Positions 23,129-52,019 of a DNA stretch of 60,476 nucleotides are shown one piece after another. The stretch spans positions 1 to 60,476 of the IMG/VR virus record IMGVR_UViG_3300048996_000064; one strand, 5' to 3'. This DNA comes from a virus. The position numbers and the translations under genes are program-made. How positions within the stretch are numbered: the first letter of the stretch is position 1; each line of letters opens with the position of its first letter. The notes beneath the pieces are model-generated. The model did not search any database. It was given only the letters and a program-made list of their open reading frames with translations, and was not told where the DNA came from.

Positions 23129-23342
23129 ACTATCAACCAGGTTTACCGAAGACTTTCATCATGTCAGCGACAACGAAACAGTCTATGAGATACTGTATTC
23201 CTACGATAACCCAGAAAGCTCAACAGCCTATCCCGAACAAAACAAAGCCTCTAAAGTACCCCTTAACTTCCCTATATGGCTTCATAAAGAAAACTGCCAG
23301 AGAGAATGTAATAAGAGAAATATTAAACCCATTGAGAGATGA
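23115..23342 (+). CDS. Small hypothetical protein
   Basis: A 75-residue product overlapping both neighbours slightly. It contains NETVYEILYSYDNP and a cysteine pair near the end (ENCQRECNKRN). A competing frame at 23161-23355 was judged a shadow because it overlaps the XRE start more deeply. Confidence 0.45.
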   Translation: MLQPKLSTRFTEDFHHVSDNETVYEILYSYDNPESSTAYPEQNKASKVPLNFPIWLHKENCQRECNKRNIKPIER

Positions 23343-23581
23343 AAAACGCACGTAGAAACTGGATAAAAGAAAGGCTCAAGTACTTCCGCAAGCAAAAGAA
23401 CCTTCAGCCAAAAGATGTGGCGGAAAAGATAAACATCAAAACAAAGACCTACTCAGCACATGAAGAAGGAAGATCAGAGCCTGATCTTTTCCGCTTAAAA
23501 GACATCTGTGCAATCTACAGTATTACCGTGGATGAGTTCCTGGATGGTTGCCCCTCACAAGTTACCCAATCATCTTGCTAA
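23339..23581 (+). CDS. XRE-family HTH regulator
   Basis: WIKERLKYFRKQKNLQPKDV then KINIKTKTYSAHEEGRSEPD and ITVDEFL form a complete XRE helix-turn-helix (about 8-65) in an 80-residue protein. Its place as the last early gene, 52 bp before the terminase operon, suggests control of the early-to-late switch. The intervening stretch (23582-23633) probably holds the late promoter, but I see no convincing box. Confidence 0.8.
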   Translation: MKNARRNWIKERLKYFRKQKNLQPKDVAEKINIKTKTYSAHEEGRSEPDLFRLKDICAIYSITVDEFLDGCPSQVTQSSC

Positions 23582-23633
23582 CAATTTGAGACGCTACTAT
23601 TCTGCTTTAGCTTTATAGATTAATTTATTTTGA

Positions 23634-24212
23634 ATGGCAGACGAGCAGGAAAAGAAATCTTTAACGGAGAAACAAGAGAAATTTTGCCAGGAATATCTTA
23701 TTGACCTGAACGCTACTCAGGCGGCAATTAGAGCCGGTTACTCAGAAAACACTTCTTACTCTATCGGATGGGAAAACTTGAGGAAACCTGAAATCCAAAC
23801 CCGGATTCAGGACTTACGTGACGAGATGGCCAAGGGTTTCAACATTACAAAAGAAAGAATAATTGAGGAGTACAGGCGGCTTGCATTCTTTGATATCAGA
23901 AAAATCCATACAGCGGACGGAGGTCTAAAATCAGTAACTGATTTTGATGATGATTCTGCAGCAGCTGTAGCGGGTATAGAGGTTTACGAAGAGGACCTTA
24001 AATCTGATGATCCGGGGGAGCAAATTACAATAGGAAGGCTCAAGAAAATAAAGCTAGCGAACAAGAAAGATGCCCTTGATTCTTTGTGCAAAGTGTTGGG
24101 ATATAACCCGCCTGATAAAAAAGAACTTACGGGCAAAGATGGCACTGAGCTATTTCCTCAACCTATTATCAACTACCACTATCCAAACACTGTTCAAAAA
24201 GAATCTACGTGA
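23634..24212 (+). CDS. terS: Terminase small subunit
   Basis: SLTEKQEKFCQEYLIDLNAT then QAAIRAGYSENT is the DNA-binding HTH of the Terminase_2 family, followed by the oligomerisation region (KERIIEEYRRLAFFDIRKI). At 192 residues the length is normal. It recognises phage DNA for packaging. Unusually the large subunit does not follow; 8.5 kb of glycan genes intervene, beginning with a 4-bp overlap at 24209. Confidence 0.92.
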   Translation: MADEQEKKSLTEKQEKFCQEYLIDLNATQAAIRAGYSENTSYSIGWENLRKPEIQTRIQDLRDEMAKGFNITKERIIEEYRRLAFFDIRKIHTADGGLKSVTDFDDDSAAAVAGIEVYEEDLKSDDPGEQITIGRLKKIKLANKKDALDSLCKVLGYNPPDKKELTGKDGTELFPQPIINYHYPNTVQKEST

Positions 24213-24751
24213 TTCATTTTACTACGCCGTTCAGAGCGGATAAAAATTTAGGGAAAGCTTACAATGATGCCATGGCATTTATACCGGACGGTGATCATAA
24301 CTGCATGCGGGATATAGATACCCTATTCCTTACCCCGGACCAGCCAGTTATCATTGAGCAATATGTGAATGAATACCCGAATGCTGTTTTAACCTGCTTT
24401 ACAAACCGGCTGAGCCAGCTGTCAAGGCCACAGTTACTGGGCGAAATAGTTAGCGAAGAATCTGATATCAGGGAGCATATAAGGCTTGCAGAATTACAGG
24501 CAGAAAAATACAGGGTATCAAAAATGGCAACGGAGATCCATAGGGATATATCCGGTATGCTGATGGTGGTGCCTAAATCTGTTTGGCAAAAAGTTCCTTT
24601 CCCTGAAGAGGGTAAATGTCTTGGTGTTGATACTTATTGGGGCAGAAAGATCAGGGAGGAATACATTCAGATTCTACGGATGGATGCGATTTATATCTTC
24701 CATACCTACAGGATGTCGAAAGGAATTCATGATAAAAGTCATTTAAAGTGA
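24209..24751 (+). CDS. GT-A-like glycosyltransferase
   Basis: The 180-residue product carries DIDTLF (Asp35-x-Asp37, a DxD-type metal site), then a variable acceptor region with DISGMLMVVPKSVWQKVPFP and YIFHTYRMSKG, the ending seen in short phage GT2-like enzymes. It should transfer a sugar from a nucleotide donor. It overlaps both terS and the next gene by 4 bp, so it is co-translated. The acceptor is unknown. Confidence 0.72.
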   Translation: MIHFTTPFRADKNLGKAYNDAMAFIPDGDHNCMRDIDTLFLTPDQPVIIEQYVNEYPNAVLTCFTNRLSQLSRPQLLGEIVSEESDIREHIRLAELQAEKYRVSKMATEIHRDISGMLMVVPKSVWQKVPFPEEGKCLGVDTYWGRKIREEYIQILRMDAIYIFHTYRMSKGIHDKSHLK

Positions 24752-25500
24752 CGAATAACGAACTCTATTATACTATCCAGCAAAGAACCCTAAAAAAAGA
24801 GCCCACATCTGTTGTCAGAATGGGTGACGGAGAAGCTATTGTGCTGAATGGGTATAACGATGAATCAAAGCTGCAATGGGTATTTAACAGGCAATTAGGT
24901 TACATACCAACACCCGAACAGGTTACGGCTATTCAAAATAACCTTGTCCGTGCCTATTCCGATGCCGACTATATTGGCGTCCCACAACACAAGAGAGAAG
25001 GATTAAACCCCTACTGGTACAGATGCATGGAAATACTCGAAGAAAAAACAGGGAGCCTGGATGACCGCAAAATGACTTCTGTTGACTTTCATAATGACTG
25101 GCTTGCTGCTGGTTATTTCGATAAGCTATTAGAGGGGTTGGATACGCTGTGTTACATCTCCTGCAGAAATCTTGATGACAGATTCAGGGAAAGATTCGGA
25201 ATTAAGAATATTCACTCTTTCATTATTGCCCCTGAGATGAAGTTTACCCCCGGTTACGCGGGAGAAAAGCATTACCCCGATCAATACCAGAAGATCAAGG
25301 AATCGATGAGAACTATCCCAATCCCCGGAAACCTGTGTCTGGTCGGTGCAGGTGTTGTCGGTAAGGTGTATAATACATGGTTCAAAGAAGCGGGCGGTAT
25401 ATCGCTGGATATCGGGAATGTGTTTGACGCATGGGCAGGGCTTGTAACAAGGGGAAGAGATCGTGGTGTGGGCGTAACTGATGAAACTTATAAACTATGA
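24748..25500 (+). CDS. GT-D-fold glycosyltransferase
   Basis: VVRMGDGEA (residues 22-30) matches the R-x-GDGE signature of GT-D glycosyltransferases, and the C-terminus has LCLVGAGVVGKVYNTWFKEA then GGISLDIGNVFDAWAG, also typical. The 250-residue size fits the catalytic domain. GT-D enzymes extend glycans on bacterial adhesins or polysaccharides. It overlaps both neighbours in ATGA form. Confidence 0.75.
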   Translation: MTNNELYYTIQQRTLKKEPTSVVRMGDGEAIVLNGYNDESKLQWVFNRQLGYIPTPEQVTAIQNNLVRAYSDADYIGVPQHKREGLNPYWYRCMEILEEKTGSLDDRKMTSVDFHNDWLAAGYFDKLLEGLDTLCYISCRNLDDRFRERFGIKNIHSFIIAPEMKFTPGYAGEKHYPDQYQKIKESMRTIPIPGNLCLVGAGVVGKVYNTWFKEAGGISLDIGNVFDAWAGLVTRGRDRGVGVTDETYKL

Positions 25501-25625
25501 TGGTTAGATTATTGAAATGCCTATTGTTGTTTCCTATATGCAGCTTTAATACATGCATAGTTCTTCCATTCTTTATTTTCAGGTGGATTATTTCAGGGAA
25601 AAAATTGGAGAACCTTTATTTTTAA
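25497..25625 (+). CDS. Small membrane peptide in the glycan cassette
   Basis: A 42-residue frame starts at ATG 25497, overlapping the previous stop: MMVRLLKCLLLFPICSFNTC then IVLPFFIFRWIISGKK. It is hydrophobic with a basic end. It could anchor cassette enzymes at the membrane; this is only an inference. Confidence 0.42.
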   Translation: MMVRLLKCLLLFPICSFNTCIVLPFFIFRWIISGKKLENLYF

Positions 25626-25649
25626 AATGGTTATTCGGACACTAACATT

Positions 25650-26291
25650 ATGAAAGTAGCAATCCTCACAGCCTCCATCGGTGGTATCGATGAAATAAAA
25701 GGCATACCAAAGCAGACCATTGATGTGGATTACTACGCCTATTTTGATAATAACCTGCCCTATCCACTTCCAAATCTGAACAACAGGCTCAAATCAAAGT
25801 ACCTGAAAATTCAGACACACAGATTCTTACAAGGTTATGATTACTATATCTGGATCGATGGCAGAATAGAAATAAAGGCTGATGTGTTTGCAGAAGAAAT
25901 GATCAAGGCTTTAGGGAATGATGATGTGGCCTTATTCCCGCACCCCGAAAGGAAGACAATAGGAAAAGAGTATGAATTTATATCTGGAGAAATAAAAGCC
26001 GGCAACCCTTACCTGACTAGCAGATACGCTAACCAGGTAATGGAGCATGAGATGAAATGGGTTCATACAGGCATAATGTGGAGTAACCCCCTTTATTCCT
26101 GTAATGTTTTTATCAGGAAAGCAAACCCAAAGGTGGATGAAGCTTTTAACGAATGGTGGTCCCGCTGCATCGAGTTCAGCAACTTTGACCAGTGCATGTT
26201 CAGTTGCACAGTCCCGTATCTGTGTAAGGTGAAAGCTTTAGATCGAATGGATTTTAGGAAACAGTTTGAAATAGGAAGCCACATAAAATGA
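25650..26291 (+). CDS. DUF616-type glycosyltransferase-like protein
   Basis: KYLKIQTHRFL and YYIWIDGRIEI (65-75) are hallmarks of the DUF616/TOD1 group, and AILTASIGGIDEIKGIP resembles its opening. The 213-residue product lacks a signal peptide, so it acts in the cytoplasm. A second member lies at 30852-31490, so the cassette carries two. It overlaps the cupin gene by 4 bp. Confidence 0.7.
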   Translation: MKVAILTASIGGIDEIKGIPKQTIDVDYYAYFDNNLPYPLPNLNNRLKSKYLKIQTHRFLQGYDYYIWIDGRIEIKADVFAEEMIKALGNDDVALFPHPERKTIGKEYEFISGEIKAGNPYLTSRYANQVMEHEMKWVHTGIMWSNPLYSCNVFIRKANPKVDEAFNEWWSRCIEFSNFDQCMFSCTVPYLCKVKALDRMDFRKQFEIGSHIK

Positions 26292-26743
26292 TCGAGATAT
26301 ATTCCAAAGTAAACCCGGATGTTCTTTTACACATTGTTGTGAGAAAAGAAGATTTTGAACCCGGCAGAAAGGATGTAGTGAACAATAACGAGTTTTTGCA
26401 ATGTGCTTTACTGAATATGGAGAAAGGTAAAACCTTCCAGCCACATAAGCATATCTGGAAACAAGGGCCACGAAAAGTAATAGCACAGGAGAGTTGGGTT
26501 TGTTTTAGCGGAAAAGTAAGGTGTATTCTCTATGACCTTAATGATAAGGTAATCGCTGAGCCTATTTTAAAAGCTGGGGATATGTCCATGACCTTTGAAG
26601 GAGCACATACCTATGAAATACTGGAAGATAATACTATGGTGGCTGAGTTTAAGACAGGACCCTACCACGGGCAATTAAAAGATAAAGAGTTTATTCAAAC
26701 AGGAGGAATAGTTCATGATCAAGGTCGTAATTACCACGTCTGA
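26288..26743 (+). CDS. Cupin-fold protein
   Basis: Beta-barrel motifs PHKHIWK (about 52-58), ESWVCFSGKVRCILYDL and GDMSMTFEGAHTYEI carry cupin metal- or sugar-binding histidines. Small cupins in polysaccharide loci bind or epimerise nucleotide sugars, and some tune chain synthesis. The 151-residue size fits one barrel. The 29-bp overlap with the next gene is the deepest in the cassette. Confidence 0.68.
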   Translation: MIEIYSKVNPDVLLHIVVRKEDFEPGRKDVVNNNEFLQCALLNMEKGKTFQPHKHIWKQGPRKVIAQESWVCFSGKVRCILYDLNDKVIAEPILKAGDMSMTFEGAHTYEILEDNTMVAEFKTGPYHGQLKDKEFIQTGGIVHDQGRNYHV

Positions 26744-27332
26744 CGCCTACCATCACATACTACCTATTTTCTTCAAGCTATATGTAAGAGAATGGAACTG
26801 GCCTTGTGAGCTTGTAGGTTATAAGAAGCCCGATATGGAGCTACCAGAATGCTGCACATGGGTAAGCCTTGGCGAACAACGAGGACCAAAGTATTTCTCT
26901 GATGACCTAAGGCCTTACTTTAAAAAACAGGATCAGTATTTCGTCTGGCTATTCGAGGATAGCTTTATTAAATCTGTGGATAAAGAGAGGCTGGAATGGT
27001 TGAAAGATAAGTGTGGTAATGTTTGGCAGTTTCAGCCAATTGGTAGAATATGCCTCAGCAGAGAAGGGATGAACAGGCCGCATGTGGTGAATGGTGAATG
27101 GTGGTTTGCAGACCCTAAAAGTTTGTACAGGTTATCTACTCAGCCATCTATCTGGAAAAGGGATTTCCTGCTTCAGTATTTGACGCCGGGACTTACTCCG
27201 TGGGCTTTTGAAAAACAGGAAACCGTAGACGACTGGGCGATCATGGGGCCAATAACAAGCATTGTGAGTCACAACGAAGGAGTTACAAAGAAAGATATTC
27301 ATAAACTAAATTTAGAAGGGATCGTATTATGA
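26715..27332 (+). CDS. Probable glycosyltransferase
   Basis: The 205-residue protein opens MIKVVITTSDAYHHILPIFF and has STQPSIWKRDFLLQYL (about 148-163) and PWAFEKQETVDDW, a pattern I associate with small glycosyltransferase-like proteins in phage and polysaccharide loci. FVWLFEDSF (about 76-84) may hold the metal-binding acid. Assignment is by pattern and context. It is coupled to the methyltransferase that follows (ATGA). Confidence 0.58.
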   Translation: MIKVVITTSDAYHHILPIFFKLYVREWNWPCELVGYKKPDMELPECCTWVSLGEQRGPKYFSDDLRPYFKKQDQYFVWLFEDSFIKSVDKERLEWLKDKCGNVWQFQPIGRICLSREGMNRPHVVNGEWWFADPKSLYRLSTQPSIWKRDFLLQYLTPGLTPWAFEKQETVDDWAIMGPITSIVSHNEGVTKKDIHKLNLEGIVL

Positions 27333-27871
27333 TAAAGCTACACGTCGGCTGCGGTAAAAGGGACTTTGGTGAAGACTGGATTCATGTGGACGGCGCAAAG
27401 CACCCACATATATCCTGTCATGATGTATATGCGTTTGATGATTTATTTCAACCCAATAGCATTAATCTCATTTACGCAAGTCACATGGTAGAATATTTTG
27501 ACCGTAAAGACGTGGCTAATATACTTGCAAAATGGCATTCACTTATGAGCGAAGGTGGTGTTATCCGTTTAGCTGTCCCCGATTTTGAATCTATTTGGGA
27601 TGAGTACGAATGCTCAAATAATCTCGACTGTTTATTAGGAATGCTCTACGGTAAAATGAAATTGAATGACCAAATTATCTACCATAAAACAATTTACGAT
27701 TTCGATAGCCTGAAGAAAGTACTAGAAGCAGCCGGGTTTAAAGATGTTCGCCGTTACAATTGGGAGCAAACTGACCATGCCCAATTCGACGATCATTCAC
27801 AAGCCTACTTACCCCACATGGACAAAAAAAACGGCAGGCTGATGTCATTAAACGTTGAGGCAACAAAATGA
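27329..27871 (+). CDS. Class I SAM-dependent methyltransferase
   Basis: LHVGCGKRDFGEDWIHVDG (4-22) is the AdoMet-binding motif I with the acidic ribose-binding end. INLIYASHMVEYF and GGVIRLAVPDFESIW follow as in the glycan-locus methyltransferase group. The 180-residue single domain probably methylates a sugar hydroxyl or a carrier intermediate. It overlaps both neighbours by 4 bp. Confidence 0.78.
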   Translation: MIKLHVGCGKRDFGEDWIHVDGAKHPHISCHDVYAFDDLFQPNSINLIYASHMVEYFDRKDVANILAKWHSLMSEGGVIRLAVPDFESIWDEYECSNNLDCLLGMLYGKMKLNDQIIYHKTIYDFDSLKKVLEAAGFKDVRRYNWEQTDHAQFDDHSQAYLPHMDKKNGRLMSLNVEATK

Positions 27872-28575
27872 ACTGGATACGCGAAGATATAATGAACCCT
27901 TACCTGGATGTATGCAGGCGTGCTGTAGAAGATGATGAAGTCTTTGCAGTGTTTAAGTCACTGCCGGCGTACAGGAAGATATTGGAGCATACAAGCCAAA
28001 GGCAAGGCGAGATTTACATGTACAAAATACCGGGCGAGTACGATGTTATTAAATTTATGACGAATGATGTGTACGGATCACCCGAAATGTTTCCATATTC
28101 GGGATATTTAATGTCCCCCACCACCTTGCAATATATCTACGTACTTAGCCGGTTGGAAAAATTGTTTGGTTCATTAGGCGGATTTAGAATTGCAGAGATT
28201 GGTGGCGGGTATGGAGGTCAATCAAAGATCATACAGGATAAATATAGGGTTGATTATCACTTGTACGATCATCCAGATGTAGTTAATCTACAAATGAAGT
28301 ATTTGGGAAAATTCAATATGTCTGCTACCGGCATTCTTTATTCAGCGGCTCCATTAGGGTACGACCTCGTAATTTCCAACTACGCCCTTTCTGAGATCAC
28401 AGAACCTTTGCTGACAGAATACGTAAGAAAGATTCTCTTACACTCAAAACACGGATATATCACCTGTAACGGACAGATAAATGCAATGCAGGAGATCAAA
28501 GATAAATTCCCCTCATTCAACATAAGCCCGGATATTGAAGGCGAAAGAGAAACAAATTATATCATTACATGGTAG
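27868..28575 (+). CDS. Putative sugar O-methyltransferase
   Basis: FRIAEIGGGYGGQSKIIQDK (about 106-125) is AdoMet motif I in the form used by the putative sugar O-methyltransferase family (TIGR04371-like). LYDHPDVV and YDLVISNYALSEI continue the Rossmann core. The 235-residue product is shorter than many members but the core is complete. It overlaps the aminotransferase gene by 7 bp. Confidence 0.75.
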   Translation: MNWIREDIMNPYLDVCRRAVEDDEVFAVFKSLPAYRKILEHTSQRQGEIYMYKIPGEYDVIKFMTNDVYGSPEMFPYSGYLMSPTTLQYIYVLSRLEKLFGSLGGFRIAEIGGGYGGQSKIIQDKYRVDYHLYDHPDVVNLQMKYLGKFNMSATGILYSAAPLGYDLVISNYALSEITEPLLTEYVRKILLHSKHGYITCNGQINAMQEIKDKFPSFNISPDIEGERETNYIITW

Positions 28576-29285
28576 ATAAAGTAACATATAACCCTTGGCC
28601 GATCGGAAATATACCCGAACACCTTCAGCGACCAGAATTAAAACAGTTGAAAGAGAAAGGCTATGAGTTTTCAGATCCACGTGAAGTTGTAGCCTTGTTT
28701 GAAAACAAAGTAGCCGCATTTGCCGGGAGTAAATTCGCCGTGGCTGTTGACTGTTGCACCCATGCAATAGAACTGTCATTACGTTACCTTATCAATAAAG
28801 GAGAGTTATCTACCCGATCAACTATTTACATTCCAGCAAACACTTATGTCTCTATTTATTGGATGCTGAAACAAATGGGGTTTTCGGTGAGGTTTGATGA
28901 AATCAACTGGGAAGGGGTCTACCATTTATCTCCTACAGCCGTTGTAGATGGTGCTGTAAGGTGGATAAAGAATATGTATGTAGGCAACAACTCACTGCAA
29001 TGTCTATCCTTCCAGATCAAAAAACCTATTCCTATAGGACGAGGGGGGGTGATTCTCACTGATGTTAAAGAAGCCGCAGAATGGCTTCGTCTTGCAGGCT
29101 ACGATGGCAGGGATTTAAACACAGCTTACGATCAGCCGGGCCACGTTAAAATGAATGGCTGGCACTACTACATGACACCGGAAGACGCAGCAAGAGGAAT
29201 ACTATTGATGGATCAAATAAAATTTAGCGGCGACTCCGCTGGCTGGCAGAATTATCCTGATTTACGTAAAATTCTGAATATTTAA
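28569..29285 (+). CDS. Short DegT/DnrJ/EryC1/StrS-type aminotransferase
   Basis: The family transfers an amino group to keto-sugar nucleotides using pyridoxal phosphate. Visible are AVDCCTHAIELSLRYL (PLP-phosphate region), IPANTYVS, VVDGA (Asp127) and SFQIKKPIPIGRGG (Lys151 or Lys152 as Schiff-base lysine). It has only 238 residues against about 370 usually, so the C-terminal domain is largely missing. It may act with a partner, be degraded, or be a minimal form. GDP-mannose 4,6-dehydratase nearby would supply a suitable 4-keto substrate. Confidence 0.75.
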   Translation: MVDKVTYNPWPIGNIPEHLQRPELKQLKEKGYEFSDPREVVALFENKVAAFAGSKFAVAVDCCTHAIELSLRYLINKGELSTRSTIYIPANTYVSIYWMLKQMGFSVRFDEINWEGVYHLSPTAVVDGAVRWIKNMYVGNNSLQCLSFQIKKPIPIGRGGVILTDVKEAAEWLRLAGYDGRDLNTAYDQPGHVKMNGWHYYMTPEDAARGILLMDQIKFSGDSAGWQNYPDLRKILNI

Positions 29286-29294
29286 AACAACGAC

Positions 29295-29831
29295 ATGACT
29301 TTAATAGTGGGAATAATTGATAAAGAAAAGGTTTACATAGGGGCAGATTCGGCAGGTGTTGCCGGGTTGGATATTACGACAAGGAAAGATGCAAAAGTTT
29401 TTAAGAAAGGAGACTTTGTGATTGGCTGTACATCATCTTTCCGTATGATTCAACTTATCCGTTTTTCATTTAACCTGCCCAAAAGATATGATAATCAAGA
29501 TGTTTACGAATATATGTGCACCTCTTTTGTAAACGAATTAAGGAATGTATTTAAAAACGGAGGGTTTGCCCGGAGAGACAATGAGGTAGAAAGCGGCGGT
29601 TTCTTTTTAGTCGGATACAAAGGGAGGCTCTTTACTATTCAGGGAGATTATCAGGTAGCTGAAGGCGAAAAGCCTTATGACGCTGTAGGTTGTGCAGAAT
29701 CTTATGCGCTTGGCGCGCTCGATGTGATGGATCAAACATTGGGCGCATCAGAAAGAATAACAAGAGCACTTGAAATAGGTGTTTATAGATCAGGAGGCGT
29801 AAGGCCGCCTTTCATAATAGAGTCAATATGA
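29295..29831 (+). CDS. Proteasome-like Ntn hydrolase
   Basis: MTLIVGIIDKEKVYIGADSA places Thr2 next to the start Met, as for the N-terminal nucleophile of proteasome beta/HslV-type enzymes. IGCTSSFRMIQLI and YDAVGCAESYALGALDVMD also match the fold. The 178-residue length fits a single HslV-like subunit. No ATPase partner is encoded nearby. It could mature or degrade a phage or host protein, or be a self-standing peptidase. Its presence inside a glycan cassette is unusual. Confidence 0.75.
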   Translation: MTLIVGIIDKEKVYIGADSAGVAGLDITTRKDAKVFKKGDFVIGCTSSFRMIQLIRFSFNLPKRYDNQDVYEYMCTSFVNELRNVFKNGGFARRDNEVESGGFFLVGYKGRLFTIQGDYQVAEGEKPYDAVGCAESYALGALDVMDQTLGASERITRALEIGVYRSGGVRPPFIIESI

Positions 29832-30862
29832 AAAAAGCATTTCTTACAGGAATCTCGGGCCAAGATGGCAGTTACTTATCCGAATATCTTTTATCATTAG
29901 GATACGAGGTGCATGGAATTATTCGCCGCCACTCTATCAGTGAATCGCAGGATATACGCATAGCACACCTGCCGGTTAAAACCTATTACGGTGACTTGCT
30001 CGACCAAAGCAGCATTGAAAGATTGTTGACCCAGATTCAGCCTGATGAAATATACAACCTCGCTGCCCAATCTCATGTAAGAGTAAGTTTTGATATACCT
30101 CAATTCTCCTGTCAGGTTAACAGCATTGGAGTTCTTAATATCCTTGAAGCCTACCGCAGGTGTTGCCCACAGGCTAAATTCTACCAGGCATCGAGCAGTG
30201 AAATGTTTGGCGATAGCGTAGACGAAGACGGATACCAGCGGGAAACAACACCCATGCACCCTGTTAGCCCTTATGGAGTTTCAAAGTTGTTTTCCTATCA
30301 CATGGTAAATAATTACAGAAATAGCTATGGGCTGCATGCCTGTAATGGCATTCTGTTTAATCATTCAGGGCCACGAAGGGGTGAGGCATTTGTAGAGCAA
30401 AAGATAGTCAAGGCAGCTGTGAGGATTAGTAAAGGTCTACAGGACACTTTGGAGCTTGGCAACATCAACGCTTACCGTGATTTTGGTCATAGTAAAGATT
30501 ACGTACGAGCCATGCACCTGATAATGCAGCAAGAGAAACCGGATAATTATGTGGTAGCCTCGGGGGAAACCCATAGCATTGAAGATGTGGTGATTTATGT
30601 TTTTAATAAGCTGGGGTTAAATATTACAAGCCATGTGACCCATGACAAAGGTTTTGAAAGGCCAACCGAATTACCCTATCTGAAAGGTGATAGCTCTCGA
30701 GTCAGAGCGTTAGGTTGGAAGCCAGATTACAGCTTTGAAAGTATGATGGATGAAATGATTGAGCATTGGCAAAAAATCTGTGGTTTTGATTACAGCCTTT
30801 TAAGTATAAAAAATCCTGAGGATTGGAGACCTTGGGCAAAGCTCGGATTCAATGAAAGATAA
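29828..30862 (+). CDS. gmd: GDP-mannose 4,6-dehydratase
   Basis: TGISGQDGS (7-15) is the NADP-binding glycine motif, SSSEMFGD (122-129) carries the catalytic Ser/Glu, and YGVSK (149-153) the Tyr/Lys pair; NHSGPRRGEAFVEQKI and a C-terminal substrate-binding region follow. At 344 residues it is full length. It converts GDP-mannose to GDP-4-keto-6-deoxymannose, the precursor of fucose, rhamnose and perosamine. No GDP-fucose synthase is encoded nearby, so the amino sugar route via the DegT protein is the likeliest next step. Confidence 0.95.
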   Translation: MKKAFLTGISGQDGSYLSEYLLSLGYEVHGIIRRHSISESQDIRIAHLPVKTYYGDLLDQSSIERLLTQIQPDEIYNLAAQSHVRVSFDIPQFSCQVNSIGVLNILEAYRRCCPQAKFYQASSSEMFGDSVDEDGYQRETTPMHPVSPYGVSKLFSYHMVNNYRNSYGLHACNGILFNHSGPRRGEAFVEQKIVKAAVRISKGLQDTLELGNINAYRDFGHSKDYVRAMHLIMQQEKPDNYVVASGETHSIEDVVIYVFNKLGLNITSHVTHDKGFERPTELPYLKGDSSRVRALGWKPDYSFESMMDEMIEHWQKICGFDYSLLSIKNPEDWRPWAKLGFNER

Positions 30863-31490
30863 AATTATTTTTACAGCATTATTCGGCAACTATGAAGAGT
30901 TGAAGGAACCAACGTTTATAACGCCGGGATGGAAGTATATATGCTTTACCGATCAGGAAATTGAATCTATAAATTGGGCAATAATTCAATCTCAATACAA
31001 AGAGAAAACAGAAGACGCTAGATCAGTAGCTCGCTGGTTTAAGATAATGAAACAAGAGGGAGATCAATCTATCTGGATCGATGCCTCCTTTCAAATCAAT
31101 TGCAACCTAGATGATTTCTGGAACGAACACTTTAAAGCACCTTTTACAGCCATTAATCATCCTGTAAGAAACTGTATGTATAAGGAGGCGTGGGCTTGCA
31201 TGAAAAGAAAATTAGGCGGGACTGATGTAGTAAAACAAATGGAAAGATACAGGGACGAAGGGTTGCCGGAAAAGAATGGCCTTATATCATCGGGTATTTT
31301 ACTAAGGAATAACTCAGAACAAACAAAAGAGTTCTGCGATCTATGGTGGAAGCAGGTTTTATCAGGCAGCATTAGAGATCAAATAGGATTTGCTTATGCA
31401 GCCTGGAAGATGCCGATAGTTAATTATTTTGATTACGATTACAGGGTGAGGCAGGAATTTATTTACTCAAAGCATTACCACAACAGATGA
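30852..31490 (+). CDS. DUF616/TOD1-like glycosyltransferase
   Basis: The opening IIFTALFGNYEELKEPTFIT, then WKYICFTD, SIWIDASFQI (73-82), GLISSGILLRNN and RDQIGFAYAAW reproduce the whole DUF616 pattern. The product is 212 residues and cytoplasmic. It is the second such gene in the cassette but only distantly similar to 25650-26291. It overlaps gmd by 11 bp and the next gene by 4 bp. Confidence 0.76.
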   Translation: MKDKIIFTALFGNYEELKEPTFITPGWKYICFTDQEIESINWAIIQSQYKEKTEDARSVARWFKIMKQEGDQSIWIDASFQINCNLDDFWNEHFKAPFTAINHPVRNCMYKEAWACMKRKLGGTDVVKQMERYRDEGLPEKNGLISSGILLRNNSEQTKEFCDLWWKQVLSGSIRDQIGFAYAAWKMPIVNYFDYDYRVRQEFIYSKHYHNR

Positions 31491-32062
31491 ACAACCATAC
31501 CGATTTATTGAATTATATAGCCAAGAAGATTGGAGCTCAAACCTACCTGGAAATCGGCGTTAGCAATGGGAAGAACTATATTCAGATTGATTGCGCAATA
31601 AAGATTGGTGTTGATTCCGATTTGCAAAGCGCAGCATCACACAAAATTACCAGTGATGAATTTTTTAATAAAAACCCGGCCTTGTTTGATTTGATATTTA
31701 TTGATGGTTTACATGAAGCAAAGCAGGTAAAACGGGATATTGAAAATGCTTATAAATTTCTCAGTGAAAAAGGTGTTATTGTGGTCCATGATTGCAATCC
31801 TGAAAGAGAGGATATGACACATATACCAAGGGATGCAAAAGTGTGGTGCGGGGATGTCTATAAAACTGTATCAAGAATAGGCGGAAAGAAGTTCACCATA
31901 GATTTTGACTACGGATGTTGTGTAATTAAAAAATCAGAAGTATCGCCACTTATATTTAGTGAACTATGGCCTTCGTGGTACATGTTCAACATTAAAAGAC
32001 ATGAATTTCTCAACCTTGTTTCAATCGAAGAAGGACTAAAAATTATTGACTCATGGATATAG
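31487..32062 (+). CDS. Class I SAM-dependent methyltransferase
   Basis: AQTYLEIGVSNGKNY (about 17-31) is AdoMet motif I, and LIFIDGLHEAKQVKRDIENA then GVIVVHDCNPERED match the Methyltransf_24 type found with sugar and glycan genes. The 191-residue product is one domain. It is the third methyltransferase of the cassette. It overlaps both neighbours (4 and 10 bp). Confidence 0.76.
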   Translation: MNNHTDLLNYIAKKIGAQTYLEIGVSNGKNYIQIDCAIKIGVDSDLQSAASHKITSDEFFNKNPALFDLIFIDGLHEAKQVKRDIENAYKFLSEKGVIVVHDCNPEREDMTHIPRDAKVWCGDVYKTVSRIGGKKFTIDFDYGCCVIKKSEVSPLIFSELWPSWYMFNIKRHEFLNLVSIEEGLKIIDSWI

Positions 32063-32712
32063 TCATACCATACATACACTCAGAAGCAAACGAGTTGCGT
32101 TATGCACTACGCAGTATTTGTAAGTACCAGGAGCATGATAAGCTATTACTGGTAGGCGATACTCCCGAGTGGTATAAAGGGGATAAAATAAGCGTAGAAT
32201 ATGTGCTGGGCAGACCAGAATTTGACGTAACCCGCAAAATATTGATGGCTATTCCAAGGCTTTCCAAAGACTTTATTCTATGGCAGGATGATATTTACAA
32301 ACTCAACAGCAATAAGATAAAGCCAGTTTACTGTGATACCCTTAGCAATGCACTTTCAAAAAGAAGAGAAGGAAGATTTAAAGGCATCATGCAAAACACG
32401 CTCGCTGCTTTCCCTGATGGATATTATTACGGTGGTCACACTCCCATGATAATAAACGGGGAAAAGTTCAAGCAGGCGGTAGAAACACACTGGACAAGGG
32501 ACCTGATCCCTAAAACCATGTACGGTAATTTCGCTGGCATTGGCGGAGAACTGGTGTCAGATTGTAAATTGAATGGAAGGTTACCCTACCCTATAATCAA
32601 ATCATTTATTCAGGGAAAAGATTATTTCTCTACCGGTCATTTTAGCATGAATAAGGATATGGTCAAAGTGCTTGATGAGCTATTCCCGGACAAGTGTAAA
32701 TATGAAAAATAA
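32053..32712 (+). CDS. Stealth-like sugar-phosphate transferase / glycosyltransferase
   Basis: MDIVIPYIHSEANELRYALR opens like Stealth-type proteins, and DFILWQDDIYKL (about 73-84) supplies the acidic DD metal site. NFAGIGGELVSDCKLNG near the end also fits. Stealth proteins transfer sugar-1-phosphates in capsule synthesis. At 219 residues this is a reduced form. It overlaps terL by 11 bp, closing the cassette. Confidence 0.62.
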   Translation: MDIVIPYIHSEANELRYALRSICKYQEHDKLLLVGDTPEWYKGDKISVEYVLGRPEFDVTRKILMAIPRLSKDFILWQDDIYKLNSNKIKPVYCDTLSNALSKRREGRFKGIMQNTLAAFPDGYYYGGHTPMIINGEKFKQAVETHWTRDLIPKTMYGNFAGIGGELVSDCKLNGRLPYPIIKSFIQGKDYFSTGHFSMNKDMVKVLDELFPDKCKYEK

Positions 32713-34075
32713 GGGCATTGAAATAAATTTTCGTCCCTCTATTAAACAGGATGAAGCATGGGGTTATCTGAATGATACAGAAACTACATTTGTTGGATAT
32801 GGAGGGTCTGGAAACAGCGGTAAATCATATTTAGAATGTCATTGGCTTACTATGAATAGTATAACCTATCCCGGAACGGGTTGGTTTTTAGGAAGAGAGA
32901 CGCTTACTGTTTTGAAAGACACGACTCTTAAAACGCTTTACAAAGTATTCAATGAATCAAATATCCGGGCGGGCAGAGATTATAAATTTAATGGCCAATC
33001 CAATGTAGTGCAGTTTAGTAACGGCTCTGAGATATTTCTATTAGATTTAAAATTTGCACCTTCTGATCATTTGTACCAATGGCTTGGCGGTTATGAATTT
33101 ACTGGCGGATGTGTCGATGAGTCAGGAGAGGTTAACAGGCAGGCGATAGTAACTCTTGCTTCAAGAATAGGCAGGCGCAGGAATCATGAGTATAAACTAA
33201 AGGCAAAAATCTGTGAAGGATTCAACCCGAGTAAGACCCATGTGTACTCAAGGTATTATAAGCCATGGAAAGAAAAGAAATTACCGACTGAGTATAAATT
33301 TGTGAAAGCCCTGCCTTCTGACAACCCTTCACCAGAAGTTGATGAATGGATCAAGACTATTCAAGCAACTAAAGATAAGCAACTGATCGAGCGTCTAATA
33401 GAAGGAAACTTTGAATATGACGATGACCCGGCAGCATTAATTGACATTGATAAGGCCAATGATGTATTTAGTAATCTCCATGTTGCGCGGGGAAGAAAAT
33501 ATGTTACGGCAGATATAGCAAGATTAGGTGGTGATAGAATTGTAATAATTGAGTGGGATGGAATGAGGGGCAAGGTTACCGCTTTCGAGAAAAAACTAAT
33601 CAATGATAGTACAGCTAATATTGAGGCCGCAAGGATACGCAATTGTTGCGGCAAATCAGATGTAATCGTAGATAGTGACGGGATGGGTTCAGGTGTCCAG
33701 GATTTTGGAGGATTTAAGGGGTTTATGAATGGATCCAGCCCATTACCCGATCCCAGAAACTCAACCGACGCCGATGGCAAACCGGTAAAAGAAAGTTTTG
33801 ATAGTCTGAAGTCACAGTGCGGATTTCGGGTTGCCGAAATTATCAATAATAATGGTTTATATTTGGAATGTGAAGATTGGATGAAAGACCTTATCATCGA
33901 AGAGTTTGAGCAGGTGAAACAAAAGAAATTAGACAGCGATATGAAAAAGGGTCTTATCCCAAAGGATAAAGTAAAAGCAAATATCGGTCGGTCTCCGGAT
34001 TTTTGGGATGCAATTTTAATGAGAATATGGTTTGAGCTTAAACCAAGATTTGTATTAACTGCGGATAGCGTATGA
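32702..34075 (+). CDS. terL: Terminase large subunit
   Basis: The ATPase domain has Walker A GYGGSGNSGKS (32-42) and GGCVDESGEV as the acidic Walker-B site. The RNase-H-like nuclease is visible as YVTADIARLGGDRIVIIEW, VIVDSDGMGSG and SPDFWDAILMRIWFE. At 457 residues it is complete. It cuts and pumps DNA into the prohead. ATG 32702 is chosen over 32672 because MKNKGIEINFRPSIKQDEAW aligns with the usual start. Confidence 0.94.
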   Translation: MKNKGIEINFRPSIKQDEAWGYLNDTETTFVGYGGSGNSGKSYLECHWLTMNSITYPGTGWFLGRETLTVLKDTTLKTLYKVFNESNIRAGRDYKFNGQSNVVQFSNGSEIFLLDLKFAPSDHLYQWLGGYEFTGGCVDESGEVNRQAIVTLASRIGRRRNHEYKLKAKICEGFNPSKTHVYSRYYKPWKEKKLPTEYKFVKALPSDNPSPEVDEWIKTIQATKDKQLIERLIEGNFEYDDDPAALIDIDKANDVFSNLHVARGRKYVTADIARLGGDRIVIIEWDGMRGKVTAFEKKLINDSTANIEAARIRNCCGKSDVIVDSDGMGSGVQDFGGFKGFMNGSSPLPDPRNSTDADGKPVKESFDSLKSQCGFRVAEIINNNGLYLECEDWMKDLIIEEFEQVKQKKLDSDMKKGLIPKDKVKANIGRSPDFWDAILMRIWFELKPRFVLTADSV

Positions 34076-34272
34076 CAGGAATATCAACGAAGCAATTTTG
34101 GGTAAAAGAAAATCCTGATGCTTCAACCTGTACCGGATGTCAAACAATGATCGTATCTGCCAAGTATGTTTTATCGGTTGAGATAAAAGCCGGAACCAAC
34201 ACAGAAACCATTCCAACCAGTACCGTACTTTGTCAAAGCTGTTACGATGCTTTAAAAATTAAGAATGCGTAA
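34072..34272 (+). CDS. Small zinc-binding protein
   Basis: The 66-residue product has CTGC (about 20-23) and CQSC (about 54-57) pairs, a plausible zinc ribbon. It overlaps terL by 4 bp. It may assist packaging or be a head accessory; no family recognised. Confidence 0.52.
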   Translation: MTGISTKQFWVKENPDASTCTGCQTMIVSAKYVLSVEIKAGTNTETIPTSTVLCQSCYDALKIKNA

Positions 34273-34429
34273 GTCCCTTTATATACCATACATATTACTA
34301 CTGATCATCGAATGGCTTATAGACATGATAGTAGAAATAATAAAGGTTATTCATAAATCTTTTGAAACAATGGCATTAGCCACTCAAAAATATATCAATG
34401 AGCCTACTAAGCAAATCCCTTCAGACTAA
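34265..34429 (+). CDS. Small membrane protein before portal
   Basis: A 54-residue frame, MRKSLYIPYILLLIIEWLID then MIVEIIKVIHKSFETM, has one membrane helix. It overlaps the stop of the zinc protein gene and the first 32 bp of the portal gene. Supported by tight overlaps and codon pattern only. Confidence 0.45.
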   Translation: MRKSLYIPYILLLIIEWLIDMIVEIIKVIHKSFETMALATQKYINEPTKQIPSD

Positions 34430-35804
34430 AGCTGAAAGGCAAATCCAAACCCCCTTCTCGGGTACGCAGTTCCAGATCATTAACGGAAGGCTCGTTTCTA
34501 TCTCTGACAACCCCGTCAACTACTTAAAAAACGGCTATGATATCAATGATATCGTTTATTCGATATTGAGCCTGATCATGGATAAGATCCGTGTTTCTCC
34601 ATGGGGATTATATAAGATCAAAGATGAATCAGCCATGAAAGCCTACCAGGGTATGCAGCGTAAAAGCCTGTGGTTTGCTGATGATTACCGAAAAATTCGT
34701 GATCTAAGACACAAGGCTATAGAACCAGTTAAAGACCCGGGCAGAATGGGCGAGTTGCTTAAATATCCTAACGACGACGAAACGATGAGTGACTTCGTGG
34801 CAAACGGGTGTGGGTATAAGCTTTCAGTAGGCAACAAATATATTTATGCTGATATACTGGAAGCGGGAGCAGATAAAGGGCTTCCTAATAAATTAATCAA
34901 CCTTCCTGCCCAATACGGAGAGATAGAAGCTACTGATTCTTTCCCGACAATAATTACCGGGTATAAGATTTCCCTATGGTCTACCCGAAGATTTCTTCCT
35001 GAAGAGATCATGCATGAAAAATACTGGAACCCAAACTGGAATATTAACGGGCAGCAGCTATACGGGGTTGCGCCTTTAAAAGCGTCATTGAAAATATTGA
35101 ACAGGGATAATAGTTCACTTGATTCATCTGCCAGTAGATTTCAGAATCAGGGTATCAGCGGTATTCTTCACATGAAAGGTGTGCCGGGCCAATCAAATGG
35201 CGATGACCTTGTGACCGAAGTAAAGAACCTGAAAAAGACAATGATCAATGAATGGTCGGGGCCACAGCAAACGGGGAAAATGGGTCTATCTGGCTATGAT
35301 ATGGGATGGCTACCAATCGGGCTCACGGCAGAAGAAATGCAGCAGATCGAGAACGAGAAATGGAATCTTCGCCGCCTGTGTAATGTATGGGGCGTTCAAT
35401 CTCAATTACTCAATGACCCAGATAATAAAACTTATGCCAACCAGGAAGAAGCGGAGAGGTCACTTACAACACGCTGCGCTATTCCTGCCCTCACCTCTTT
35501 CCGCGATAACCTGAACCGTAAACTGCAAAAGGATTGGGGACTAAAGGGTAAGGGATTGATTGCTGATTATGATGCGTCTGTTTATACTGAGCTACAGCAG
35601 GATACCGCTAAGATGGTTGAATGGCTGGATAAGCTAATGAACAGGGGCCTGCCTCCTAACAGGGCTATGGAACTACTCAACCTTGAAAGAATTGATAATC
35701 CAATATTCGATGAACCATGGATTTCTCTAAACGCTGGTCAGCCACTTTCGGAATGGTTATTGAACCCTGTTGATGACGCTTTAAACATGTTCGATGAATC
35801 GTAA
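34398..35804 (+). CDS. Portal protein (HK97 family)
   Basis: The 468-residue product shows the portal layout: an N-terminal stem region, the conserved NINGQQLYGVAPLKASLKIL, then NLKKTMINEWSGPQQTGK and the crown (QDTAKMVEWLDKLMNRGLPP). It forms the dodecameric channel through which DNA enters and to which the tail attaches. It follows terminase and precedes the head morphogenesis gene, the normal HK97 order. Confidence 0.9.
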   Translation: MSLLSKSLQTKAERQIQTPFSGTQFQIINGRLVSISDNPVNYLKNGYDINDIVYSILSLIMDKIRVSPWGLYKIKDESAMKAYQGMQRKSLWFADDYRKIRDLRHKAIEPVKDPGRMGELLKYPNDDETMSDFVANGCGYKLSVGNKYIYADILEAGADKGLPNKLINLPAQYGEIEATDSFPTIITGYKISLWSTRRFLPEEIMHEKYWNPNWNINGQQLYGVAPLKASLKILNRDNSSLDSSASRFQNQGISGILHMKGVPGQSNGDDLVTEVKNLKKTMINEWSGPQQTGKMGLSGYDMGWLPIGLTAEEMQQIENEKWNLRRLCNVWGVQSQLLNDPDNKTYANQEEAERSLTTRCAIPALTSFRDNLNRKLQKDWGLKGKGLIADYDASVYTELQQDTAKMVEWLDKLMNRGLPPNRAMELLNLERIDNPIFDEPWISLNAGQPLSEWLLNPVDDALNMFDES

Positions 35805-37553: not shown

Positions 37554-38336
37554 ATGAAACAGTTTGAAATCAAGACTCTTGACGGAGGCGTTTTAGATGT
37601 AGATGATAAAAGTCGTCGTGTGAAAACAGCCTGGAATAGAGTGGGCATCCTTGATTTTGATAAGGATATTATCGAGAAAACAGGTTTTGATAAAACGATC
37701 AAGGAACGGGGACCCAAAGCTAAAAATCTTATCTGGCACCTGACAGACCATAAACCTTCTTTGAAAGATGCGGTGGGCAAACCTACAGATGTTTTTGTAG
37801 AGAATGATTTTCTCGTCTCAATTACTGATATTCCAAATACTACATGGGGGAATGACGTACTTGAATTTTATAAAACCGGCACTATTAACCAGCACTCAAT
37901 CGGTTTTTCAACAATTAAACGGGAAGTATTCAATGATGATGACTGGGCCAAGCGTTATACGGTAATCAAAGAGGTGCAGCTTTATGAAGGATCAGCAGTT
38001 TTGTGGGGAGCAAATGAATTTACCCCTACTCTATCTGTGGGCAAATCCCTCACCAAAGAAGAATCTGAAAAAGAATTTTTGAAAATAAAAACAGAACTTG
38101 ATAGCTTTGCTAAGCTCTTCAAGTCTGGTCATCTCTCTGATCAATCCTTTGAACTGGTTGAAATGAAGATGACACAGCTTACAGACAGACTCCAACAGAT
38201 TTTCCAAGAAATCACTCAACCCGCCGCGAAAGCAGTAGAGCCGATTAAAGAAAACTTGTTAGATGTTTTTAAAACATTTAATAACTCTTTAAACTCTACT
38301 CGCAATGACTCCCGAACAATTGAAGCAAGAGCTTGA
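37554..38336 (+). CDS. HK97-family prohead protease
   Basis: VKTAWNRVGILDFDKDIIEK opens the U35-type fold, with His66 (HLTDHKPSL) and Ser115 (INQHSIGFS) as likely catalytic His and Ser. The C-terminal 70 residues form a helical extension. The enzyme matures the capsid by removing the scaffold domain. The gene overlaps the capsid gene by 32 bp. Confidence 0.9.
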   Translation: MKQFEIKTLDGGVLDVDDKSRRVKTAWNRVGILDFDKDIIEKTGFDKTIKERGPKAKNLIWHLTDHKPSLKDAVGKPTDVFVENDFLVSITDIPNTTWGNDVLEFYKTGTINQHSIGFSTIKREVFNDDDWAKRYTVIKEVQLYEGSAVLWGANEFTPTLSVGKSLTKEESEKEFLKIKTELDSFAKLFKSGHLSDQSFELVEMKMTQLTDRLQQIFQEITQPAAKAVEPIKENLLDVFKTFNNSLNSTRNDSRTIEARA

Positions 38337-39615
38337 TACACTCAAATCTTCTGTGGAATCAATCGCCGATGCAAAGGCAAAAGCAGCCGTTCTTGAACAG
38401 ATCAAATCAATTGAAGCAAAAATTAGTGATGCTGTTAAGGATCTCCCCGCATTAAAACAACAACTGGAAGAAGCTAAATCCGCTGCAGAAACTGCAAAGC
38501 AGGAAGTTGCTGATTTTAAAGCTGCTCAGGTAACAAAAGACGAAGCCGATAAGGCAAACCAGGAAGCATTAAACAACGCTCTCTCTGATATTAAAGCCCT
38601 CAAATCAGCCAAGCCAAAAAGGGAAGACCTTCCAACTCTTGGCGAAGCAATAATGACCGCATTCAATGAAGGAGATAACTTCAAGAATATTGAAATGATG
38701 GCCACGAACCACAAGGATCGTGAAAAGAAATTTTCAATTGAACTAAAAACAGTAGGTGACGTATCTGTATCTGCCAACTATACAGGAGGCTCACGAGGTC
38801 TTCAGGTACTTTCTCCTGCAATTGTTCAAACCCCTCCAAGGAAAGTACATATTCGCCAATTAGTACCTAATGGCACTATTGGGCAGGGTACCGAGTTTGT
38901 TTTCATGAAAGAAAACGGTGATGGCGAAGGCGCAATCGCTCCTACAGCGGAAGGAAACACAAAACCGCAAATCGATATTGACCTGGTAGAAAGTTCAGTG
39001 AAGATTGAAACTATTGCCGGTTGGATGAGAGTCACACGAAAAGCCATGAACAACATTCAGGGGTTTTTATCATTCCTGAATGCAAGGCTGCCGGAAAAAC
39101 TTTTGCGTGTAGAAGATACCCAATTACTCAACGGTGATGGCGTGACACCAAATATCAAAGGTATCATGCGGTCTGGCAATTTTACTGCCGCTACAACTAC
39201 AAGCTCATTCTTAGGTGAGCAGCTCATCGATGGGCTTGCTCAGCTGGAAGATACTTATGACCGCAGCGCAACCGGCATTTTACTTCGCCCGGTCGATTAC
39301 TATAGCTTCTTTAAACATAAAGCAACAACATCAGGAGAATATGACCTGCCAAAGAATTTCACATTTGACGGCGGTGTGCTTCGTATTTCCGGTGTTCCTG
39401 TATTCATGTCTACAGGCATGATCGCTGACCAGTATATCATCGGTGACTGGCAGATGGGTGCGCAACTTCTTATCCAGGAAGGTATGCGTATTGAATTCTT
39501 CGAGCAGGACGGTACCAATGTTCGCGAGAACAAGATCACTATCCGTATCGAGGAAACGGTGGCATTCCCTGTATTTGGTTCAACATTCTTTGTAGTTGGT
39601 TCAGCAGGCAGCTAA
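38305..39615 (+). CDS. Major capsid protein (HK97 fold)
   Basis: Residues 1-110 form a coiled-coil delta/scaffold domain (QLEEAKSAAETAKQEVADF), which the protease removes. The rest is the HK97 fold, seen in QVLSPAIVQTPPRKVHIRQL, IETIAGWMRVTRKAM, LNARLPEKLLRVEDTQLLNG and GVPVFMSTGMIADQYIIGD. The 436-residue length is typical. It builds the icosahedral shell. Confidence 0.95.
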   Translation: MTPEQLKQELDTLKSSVESIADAKAKAAVLEQIKSIEAKISDAVKDLPALKQQLEEAKSAAETAKQEVADFKAAQVTKDEADKANQEALNNALSDIKALKSAKPKREDLPTLGEAIMTAFNEGDNFKNIEMMATNHKDREKKFSIELKTVGDVSVSANYTGGSRGLQVLSPAIVQTPPRKVHIRQLVPNGTIGQGTEFVFMKENGDGEGAIAPTAEGNTKPQIDIDLVESSVKIETIAGWMRVTRKAMNNIQGFLSFLNARLPEKLLRVEDTQLLNGDGVTPNIKGIMRSGNFTAATTTSSFLGEQLIDGLAQLEDTYDRSATGILLRPVDYYSFFKHKATTSGEYDLPKNFTFDGGVLRISGVPVFMSTGMIADQYIIGDWQMGAQLLIQEGMRIEFFEQDGTNVRENKITIRIEETVAFPVFGSTFFVVGSAGS

Positions 39616-41864: not shown

Positions 41865-41893
41865 ACTCTTTTAACTCTTTAAAAAATAGTGTC

Positions 41894-42343
41894 ATGGTAA
41901 AAGTAAACGGATCACTTGTCACCCTTAAATACCGGGTTTGGCCTTCTGCAACATGGCTGAATATTGTTTGCGTCGAGGATTCAACCTTTGAGATCACGCA
42001 GGATGTAGCAGAGCGGGAAACAAACTGCGGAGTTATCACCAATCCCGGAACAACAAAATTCAATGCGCAGGTAAATGCTGTGCAGAATGCAAATCCCACC
42101 GCAACAGAAGCCGATTACAAAAAGATCAAGGATTTGATGCTGGCAAAAACAAAGGTTCAATTCCTTTATCAAAGCGAGGCTGATGCTGCAAATGGACTAT
42201 CTGATGCTGAAGGTATTTACAATAAGGGTAACGGGTATTTTACTACCCTTTCCTCAACAGCGGGAGCAAGTGCAGATGGCATTCTTTCCTATTCACTCAC
42301 GCTTTCCGGAACAGGTACACTTGACGACTTTGATGAATCATAA
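41894..42343 (+). CDS. Major tail tube protein
   Basis: The 149-residue, beta-rich product (KVNGSLVTLKYRVWPSATWL, FEITQDVAERETNC, TLSGTGTLDDFDES) matches TP901-1/lambda-V-like tube proteins in size and position. It polymerises around the tape measure. A 29-bp gap with a T-rich stretch precedes it, perhaps allowing extra initiation for this abundant protein. Confidence 0.78.
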   Translation: MVKVNGSLVTLKYRVWPSATWLNIVCVEDSTFEITQDVAERETNCGVITNPGTTKFNAQVNAVQNANPTATEADYKKIKDLMLAKTKVQFLYQSEADAANGLSDAEGIYNKGNGYFTTLSSTAGASADGILSYSLTLSGTGTLDDFDES

Positions 42344-42346
42344 TTT

Positions 42347-48358: not shown

Positions 48359-48360
48359 AC

Positions 48361-51993: not shown

Positions 51994-52019
51994 ACATGTC
52001 TGAAACTAAAATCAATTAT

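Follow-up and report, generated by a model that had tools for sequence, protein, structure and literature searches.

In mycobacteriophages such as Che8, Corndog and Myrna (Freeman et al., 2023, as cited in PMC12619734 and PMC12363180), phage-encoded glycosyltransferases are reported to glycosylate virions, and the glycans are reported to lie at the C-termini of capsid and tail-tube subunits (PMC12619734; Che8 is named in PMC12363180). In Che8, terS and terL are adjacent and the named glycosyltransferase is gp110. In the chlorovirus PBCV-1, virus-encoded Gmd and glycosyltransferases make O-methylated deoxyhexose glycans on the major capsid protein Vp54 (PMC4691112), although this is a eukaryotic virus with N-linked internal sites on a different capsid fold and without a terminase-linked operon. 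Cellulophaga phages phi17:1, phi18:1 and phi12:1 (Helsingorvirus type) have a Methyltransf_24 gene plus a fused glycosyltransferase gene of predicted TOD1 and GT1 type in the head operon; these are only two genes, gp41 and gp42 in phi17:1, located between MuF and protease, there is no Gmd, DegT or cupin there, and terS and terL are adjacent.

We have analyzed a stretch of 60,476 nucleotides from IMG/VR record IMGVR_UViG_3300048996_000064 (positions 1 to 60,476; hereafter, the window), in which 13 sugar-handling genes plus a 41-aa hydrophobic ORF lie between terS and terL. The initial annotation had described at 24209-32712 a glycan-synthesis cassette of 13 genes, almost all coupled by overlaps of 4-29 bp, consisting of at least six glycosyltransferase-like proteins, three methyltransferases, a cupin, a short DegT, gmd and an Ntn hydrolase, plus a small membrane peptide, and this observation was confirmed in both coordinates and gene content. 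Compared with the mycobacteriophage systems, which belong to a different host phylum, this is a cassette with its own predicted nucleotide-sugar pathway and three methyltransferases, placed inside the terminase operon. The genes and the two proposed acceptor proteins are as follows.

23634..24212, plus strand: terS, terminase small subunit, left anchor (PF03592, 3.6e-35)
24209..24751, plus strand: GT1, predicted GT-A glycosyltransferase, proposed protein O-glycosyltransferase (phrog_14179, 3e-33)
24748..25500, plus strand: GT-D fold glycosyltransferase (PF22882, 5.7e-13, above cut-off)
25500..25625, plus strand: 41-aa hydrophobic peptide ORF, read from sequence without an assigned function
25650..26291, plus strand: TOD1/MUCI70-like glycosyltransferase (PF04765, 8.6e-6, above cut-off)
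26288..26743, plus strand: WbuC-family cupin (TIGR04366, 42.7 bits, marginally above the cut-off of 42)
26715..27332, plus strand: predicted GT-A fold glycosyltransferase with no Pfam hit (unk205)
27329..27871, plus strand: SAM methyltransferase (PF13489, 5.7e-5, below cut-off)
27868..28575, plus strand: NanM-type sugar O-methyltransferase (TIGR04371, 51 bits, cut-off 44)
28569..29285, plus strand: mini-DegT PLP enzyme without the C-terminal small domain (PF01041, 1.7e-13)
29295..29831, plus strand: HslV-like Ntn hydrolase (phrog_1040, 3.7e-22), with no homologue seen in the other cassettes
29828..30862, plus strand: Gmd, GDP-mannose 4,6-dehydratase (PF16363, 1.1e-111)
30852..31490, plus strand: TOD1/MUCI70-like glycosyltransferase, fused to the GT1 domain in Cellulophaga phages (PF04765, 1.2e-11; phrog_26101)
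31487..32062, plus strand: Methyltransf_24 methyltransferase (PF13578, 6.6e-11)
32053..32712, plus strand: Stealth-like transferase (phrog_7999, 6e-21; PF11380 Stealth_CR2, 2.8e-4, below cut-off)
32702..34075, plus strand: terL, terminase large subunit, right anchor (phrog_2, 1.4e-20; the TTG at 32672 is a mechanical start)
38305..39615, plus strand: major capsid protein (MCP), C-terminus VVGSAGS, proposed acceptor (PF05065, 2.1e-24)
41894..42343, plus strand: tail-tube candidate, C-terminus DDFDES, proposed second acceptor (remote homologue of phage tail-tube proteins, PF06199 in L398; no Pfam hit of its own)

Junctions within the cassette run from -29 to +24 bp, and the cassette overlaps the terS stop by 4 bp and the terL start by 11 bp. 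By tblastn, TerL is 35-40% identical to that of Flavobacterium phage 11b and other Bacteroidota phages. Of the six glycosyltransferase-like proteins, two are supported by folds predicted with AlphaFold2 and compared by Foldseek, two by PF04765, one by PF22882, and that at 32053 only by the sub-threshold Stealth_CR2 hit and phrog_7999. The GT1 model (pLDDT 91.3) matched LARGE1 (1e-4) and the fucosyltransferase WrtF (4e-4) and GT1 has a conserved DxD motif, whereas a sequence search of GT1 against PDB found no relatives. The unk205 model (pLDDT 91.5) gave 136 Foldseek matches at E<=0.001, the best ones being glycosyltransferases. Gmd was aligned to PDB 1n7g (7.5e-92) and 1db3 with the S/T-E and YxxxK residues kept, while its NCBIfam equivalog score of 366.8 is below the cut-off of 415.

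The same ordered cassette abuts terL in three other independent IMG/VR contigs (L174, L179 and L250) at 37-68% protein identity to the window, and L174 also has a DUF5681 terS-like gene upstream; this recurrence is more than chance. None of about 137 TerL-recruited relatives has the cassette, and the location, which the initial annotation had called notable, is unusual for relatives but is shared with these three contigs. Against a role in the virion, L170, L213 and L249 carry the enzymes outside a recognisable head module. Since cassette proteins are more alike between phages than portal, MuF or protease (37-68% versus 26-36%), as expected if moved horizontally, and since the cupin-methyltransferase-DegT-Gmd subset occurs widely in other viral contigs, we considered that the cassette is moron cargo captured from a host capsule locus and retained by chance, with no target in the virion. 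We consider this very unlikely, because the same order is found beside terL across very diverged phages, the genes are translationally coupled, active-site residues are intact, and the association with MCP and tail tube described below would remain to be explained.

The initial annotation had inferred that a methylated 6-deoxy(amino)hexose glycan is built during late expression to decorate the virion, the DNA or the host surface, and this interpretation is partly supported. The DNA branch, in which sugar would be put on modified bases of the packaged genome to evade restriction, as in T4-like or Thanatos-like phages, is suggested by the location next to the terminase genes, by the fact that phage glycosyltransferases commonly glycosylate DNA (PMC12619734), and by the annotation of the Methyltransf_24 homologue in phi17:1 as a DNA methylase. 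However, no thymidylate-synthase-like hydroxymethylase or other base-hypermodification enzyme was found among 74 further window proteins scanned with Pfam, and DNA modification would not explain the Ser/Thr ends of MCP and tail tube, so that this branch is disfavoured. For the host-surface branch, in which host polysaccharide would be remodelled in lysogeny or late infection to block superinfection or favour release, there are an integrase at 1393-2646, O-antigen-type enzymes (WbuC cupin, Gmd and NanM) and a polysaccharide lyase in the phage. This is also disfavoured, because there is no flippase, polymerase or membrane glycosyltransferase as in gtr-type serotype conversion, no long hydrophobic segment was found in any cassette enzyme, all of these being predicted soluble except the 41-aa peptide (hydropathy 2.15 over 19 residues), and the cassette is placed in the late operon rather than in a lysogeny region. 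No GT1 was found in 395 Bacteroidia genomes at 1e-10, a negative result without a positive control.

The virion branch is strongly supported, and was narrowed to the C-termini of two proteins by comparison with hundreds of relatives. GT1 belongs to a phage family found in head operons: among 76 loci recruited by GT1 alone, the gene lies within 1 kb of a head gene in 50, on the same strand in 48/50, and a within-locus control gave 20 observed against 9.0 expected. This control replaced a comparison with DegT loci, for which head proximity was 0/80 but only 2 of the loci have detectable head genes. The presence of GT1 predicts the last residue of the two most abundant virion proteins. MCP ends in Ser/Thr in 25/25 clusters of GT1+ phages versus 8/61 of those without GT1 (90% clusters; 16/16 versus 2/13 at 50%). 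The tail tube does so in 16/18 versus 0/42 clusters, and both proteins together in 51/54 GT1+ loci and 0/49 GT1- loci. Portal, protease and MuF do not, the specificity counts being portal 1/29, MuF 0/31, protease 0/42 and connector 2/38, although the window's own portal also happens to end in Ser. In phylogenetically independent contrasts, 8 well-supported pairs were obtained, of which 6.3 agree on average and 0 oppose (sign-test median p 0.03); the independent-pair test for the tail tube is too small to be significant on its own. Within one capsid family ending GDFTAV, the only GT1+ member, L429, ends GDFTAT. The phi17:1 MCP ends VSGT and its tail protein RTVGT, and as a literature control, the Che8 MCP ends KTGS and its major tail protein SDGS.

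This prediction held in a second sample recruited by MCP, with 10/10 versus 5/39, where 2 of the 10 had been seen before; a mixed MCP alignment was too diverse to scan with. Three of the five exceptions carry other, unrelated glycosyltransferases in the head module, namely GT11 plus an O-methyltransferase after MCP in L529 and L532, and a Stealth/methyltransferase/GT4 cassette before terL in L614, while L594 and L625 have a Ser-terminated MCP with no glycosyltransferase seen. E. coli Phapecoctavirus did not give a clean test of generality, and in the E. coli phage Ro121c4YLVW, which has a GT1 homologue, the MCP ends LTTA. Only GT1, not the whole cassette, is tied to the Ser/Thr signature; full-cassette phages are few, and the signature is statistical rather than a detected glycan.

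We consider, with a probability of roughly 0.8, that the cassette is a virion-protein glycosylation pathway built into the late packaging operon. Gene content, coupling, recurrence at terL, the predicted GT-A folds and the association of GT1 with Ser/Thr-terminated capsid and tail-tube proteins were established computationally, whereas the glycan itself, late expression, the exact sugar and the following steps are inferred. The cassette would be co-translated with terS, terL and the head genes from one late transcript; the mini-DegT and cupin would carry out a sugar conversion, possibly to an amino-deoxyhexose; GT1 would transfer the first sugar in the cytoplasm directly onto the C-terminal Ser/Thr of MCP and tail-tube subunits, before or during assembly; and the other glycosyltransferases would extend the chain, which the three methyltransferases would cap. 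In this view, the head and tail surface of the particle carry a methylated deoxyhexose glycan, probably as a shield or to tune adsorption.

A wider reading, which we regard as somewhat more likely than not, is that Ser/Thr at the very C-terminus of both MCP and the tail-tube protein is a general, sequence-readable mark of glycosylated tailed-phage virions, and that it has arisen several times with unrelated glycosyltransferases (GT1, GT11, GT4-type cassettes and mycobacteriophage enzymes), most of them kept in the head operon. GT1 would then be a new family of protein O-glycosyltransferases acting on C-terminal Ser/Thr. Virion glycosylation has been shown in only a few phages. If the mark holds, glycosylated phages could be read off genomes, including those from metagenomes, the acceptor site would be known in advance, and the function of many unannotated head-operon glycosyltransferases would become directly testable in cultured phages such as Cellulophaga phi17:1. 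This would also explain why sugar-pathway genes sit among packaging and capsid genes.

A promoter and terminator scan of 23300-34600 gave no more hits than shuffled sequences (31 versus 30.7 and 6 versus 8.9, respectively), and thus neither supports nor rules out internal promoters. No convincing att repeats were found in the largest direct-repeat families. The mini-DegT differs from full two-domain DegT sugar aminotransferases of perosamine-synthase type, since its homologues have a median length of 200 aa and lack the C-terminal domain, and it is classified only as DegT-related. A degenerate or broken DegT was rejected because the PLP Lys and Asp are conserved in 91/91 homologues.

The record studied is a 60,476-base IMG/VR virus sequence, in which 13 genes and a 41-aa hydrophobic ORF lie between the two terminase genes. 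The features with positions that are needed here are as follows:
23634-24212, terS (PF03592)
28569-29285, short DegT protein (mini-DegT)
29295-29831, HslV-like Ntn hydrolase, between DegT and Gmd
terL, ending at 34075

Neighbouring genes overlap by 1-29 bp or are separated by at most 24 bp; the first gene begins inside the end of terS, and the last overlaps the likely terL start by 11 bp. The six glycosyltransferases claimed in the initial annotation stand up: two are supported by AlphaFold2 models (pLDDT 91) whose best Foldseek matches are GT-A glycosyltransferases, three by Pfam matches above cut-off (GT-D-like, and TOD1_MUCI70 twice), and one only by weak Stealth similarity. Gmd keeps the dehydratase residues when aligned with solved enzymes. 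The short DegT is not a broken gene, since 91 homologues have a median length of 200 aa with invariant PLP lysine and aspartate. This family of about 200 aa, which has complete PLP active-site residues but lacks the C-terminal domain, is abundant in viral contigs (at least 596 confirmed candidate stretches, and contigs L249-L328 in our set) and often sits beside cupin, methyltransferase and Gmd genes.

The arrangement is not a one-off. Scans with the first glycosyltransferase of the cassette (GT1) and with DegT brought in three other contigs (L174, L179, and L250), in which the genes GT1-GTD-cupin-GT-MT-(NanM)-DegT-Gmd-TOD1-MT24 are found in the same order and directly overlap terL. In the fuller record of L174, a DUF5681 ORF, which we infer to be probably terS, precedes the cassette, and portal, MuF, protease, major capsid protein (MCP), and connector genes follow. 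NanM was not detected in L250, and the Ntn hydrolase and the first TOD1 enzyme (TOD1a) are missing in all three, the HslV-like hydrolase being found in none of the related cassettes. Identity to the record studied is 37-68% for cassette proteins, 43-48% for TerL, and 26-36% for portal, MuF, protease, and MCP, so the arrangement is old or has moved repeatedly. In contrast, none of about 137 loci recruited by TerL carries the cassette. Among 112 of these, the gene just upstream of terL is most often a recognised small-terminase family, and no sugar family appears among the top 25 Pfam families. Annotated relatives such as 11b, phi17:1, and BS-TP3 have adjacent terS and terL, while in Polaribacter phage P12002L (L009, 88-6801) the two are separated by about 4.5 kb of unrelated small genes, which is another interrupted terminase pair. 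The statement of the initial annotation that an uninterrupted terS-terL operon is the norm is therefore right, with exceptions.

In 80 contigs recruited by GT1 alone, a head gene lies within 1 kb in 50 of 76, on the same strand in 48 of 50; at 90% clustering these are 36 clusters, 16 of which have a head gene within 1 kb. In 23 longer loci with head genes, 20 have GT1 within 1 kb against 9.0 expected for random placement, and 19 lie inside the head block. Positions of GT1 differ: before terL, before portal, between MuF and protease, and between MCP and connector. In contig L173 (9935-15705), a different sugar cassette (GT1, GT2 family, methyltransferases, polysaccharide deacetylase, and Stealth-like) is inserted between MCP and connector.

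Reading of MCP C-termini showed that phages with GT1 (GT1+) end in Ser or Thr, and this was then tested. When negatives were restricted to loci with at least 6 kb upstream and 3 kb downstream of MCP, 100/100 GT1+ MCPs (19/19 clusters) ended in Ser or Thr, versus 2/24 clusters without GT1 (GT1-). For the tail-tube protein, the counts were 64/67 versus 0/49 loci and 16/18 versus 0/42 clusters, and other head proteins do not show the signature. Since many contigs are near-duplicates, cluster counts should be used rather than locus counts, and the GT1- status depends on how much sequence a contig covers. Because GT1 had been used to recruit the positives, we scanned again with two MCP alignments, without GT1 as a query, and obtained 10/10 GT1+ (two of them already known) versus 5/39 GT1-. 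Three of the five exceptions turned out to carry other glycosyltransferases in the head module: contigs L529 and L532 have a GT11 enzyme (PF01531) and a CmcI-like O-methyltransferase between MCP and connector, and contig L614 has Stealth-like, methyltransferase, and GT4-like genes immediately before terL. The remaining two, L594 and L625, are true exceptions, and their tail-tube proteins do not end in Ser/Thr. The pooled counts are 25/25 versus 8/61 clusters (Fisher 4.5e-15, not corrected for phylogeny). On an MCP tree built without the last 12 residues, there are 8 well-supported independent contrasts, of which 6.3 agree on average and none opposes (median sign-test p 0.03). One contrast is very clean: in the capsid family of Flavobacterium phage 11b, mostly ending GDFTAV, the GT1+ member L429 ends GDFTAT, with GT1 just upstream of its terS-like gene. 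The rule is not clean in E. coli Phapecoctavirus, and the tail-tube assignment in the record studied is itself remote. A Bacteroidia prophage (L526, 2158-5380) has nucleotide-sugar genes (cytidylyltransferase and FkbM methyltransferase) directly upstream of portal although its MCP ends VVLK, and this may be a counter-example or reflect a different target.

As a control from the literature, mycobacteriophages are reported to carry glycans at the C-termini of capsid and tail-tube subunits (PMC12619734), with Che8 among the glycosylated phages (PMC12363180). The Che8 record gives MCP ending VVFNKTGS and major tail protein ending EQYSDGS, although these are the sequence ends and not residues confirmed as modified. 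In a draw of 13 capsid genes from 295 Bacteroidia genomes, five end in SGS, and three of those lie near a family-2 glycosyltransferase. In the Bacteroidia chromosomes L518-L521 (e.g., L518, 6333-8964), a prohead-protease/MCP gene pair with MCP ending in SGS sits mostly in non-phage chromosomal surroundings with secreted repeat proteins, and L520 and L521 also have a GT2-family protein nearby; this looks like a domesticated capsid pair.

All cassette enzymes are predicted to be soluble, which fits sugar transfer in the cytoplasm onto capsid and tail subunits rather than export to the surface. All of the evidence is sequence-based: gene content, gene order, and the association of GT1 with the protein ends come from the analysis, while the transfer of sugar to these proteins and the individual steps of the pathway are inferred. 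Gmd gives GDP-4-keto-6-deoxymannose by established enzymology. What the mini-DegT and cupin do with this product is a matter of inference; an amino-deoxyhexose is plausible, but the DegT lacks the C-terminal domain of known aminotransferases. Since GT1 is the common denominator of the signature, we assign it, also by inference, the priming step. The TOD1 enzyme and MT24 form the minimal partner set in phi17:1-type phages. PBCV-1 offers a working analogue, with virus-encoded Gmd and O-methylated deoxyhexoses on its capsid protein (PMC4691112). The biological use of such a modification might be shielding, adsorption, or stability.

ALTERNATIVES. DNA glycosylation lacks an acceptor-base pathway in this genome, as judged from Pfam scans of 74 further proteins, and does not explain the protein ends. 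Host-surface conversion lacks membrane components among the cassette enzymes. Passive cargo does not explain the conserved order, the coupling, and the acceptor association.

Within 40481-60457 of the record, one protein matches polysaccharide lyase PF14099 and one a GDSL lipase, which are a possible tail-borne depolymerase and esterase, and a second GDSL protein lies in the left half. No att repeat was identified, but a phage integrase near the left end (1393-2646) and a tRNA-Lys near the right end (58978-59051) suggest a temperate phage.
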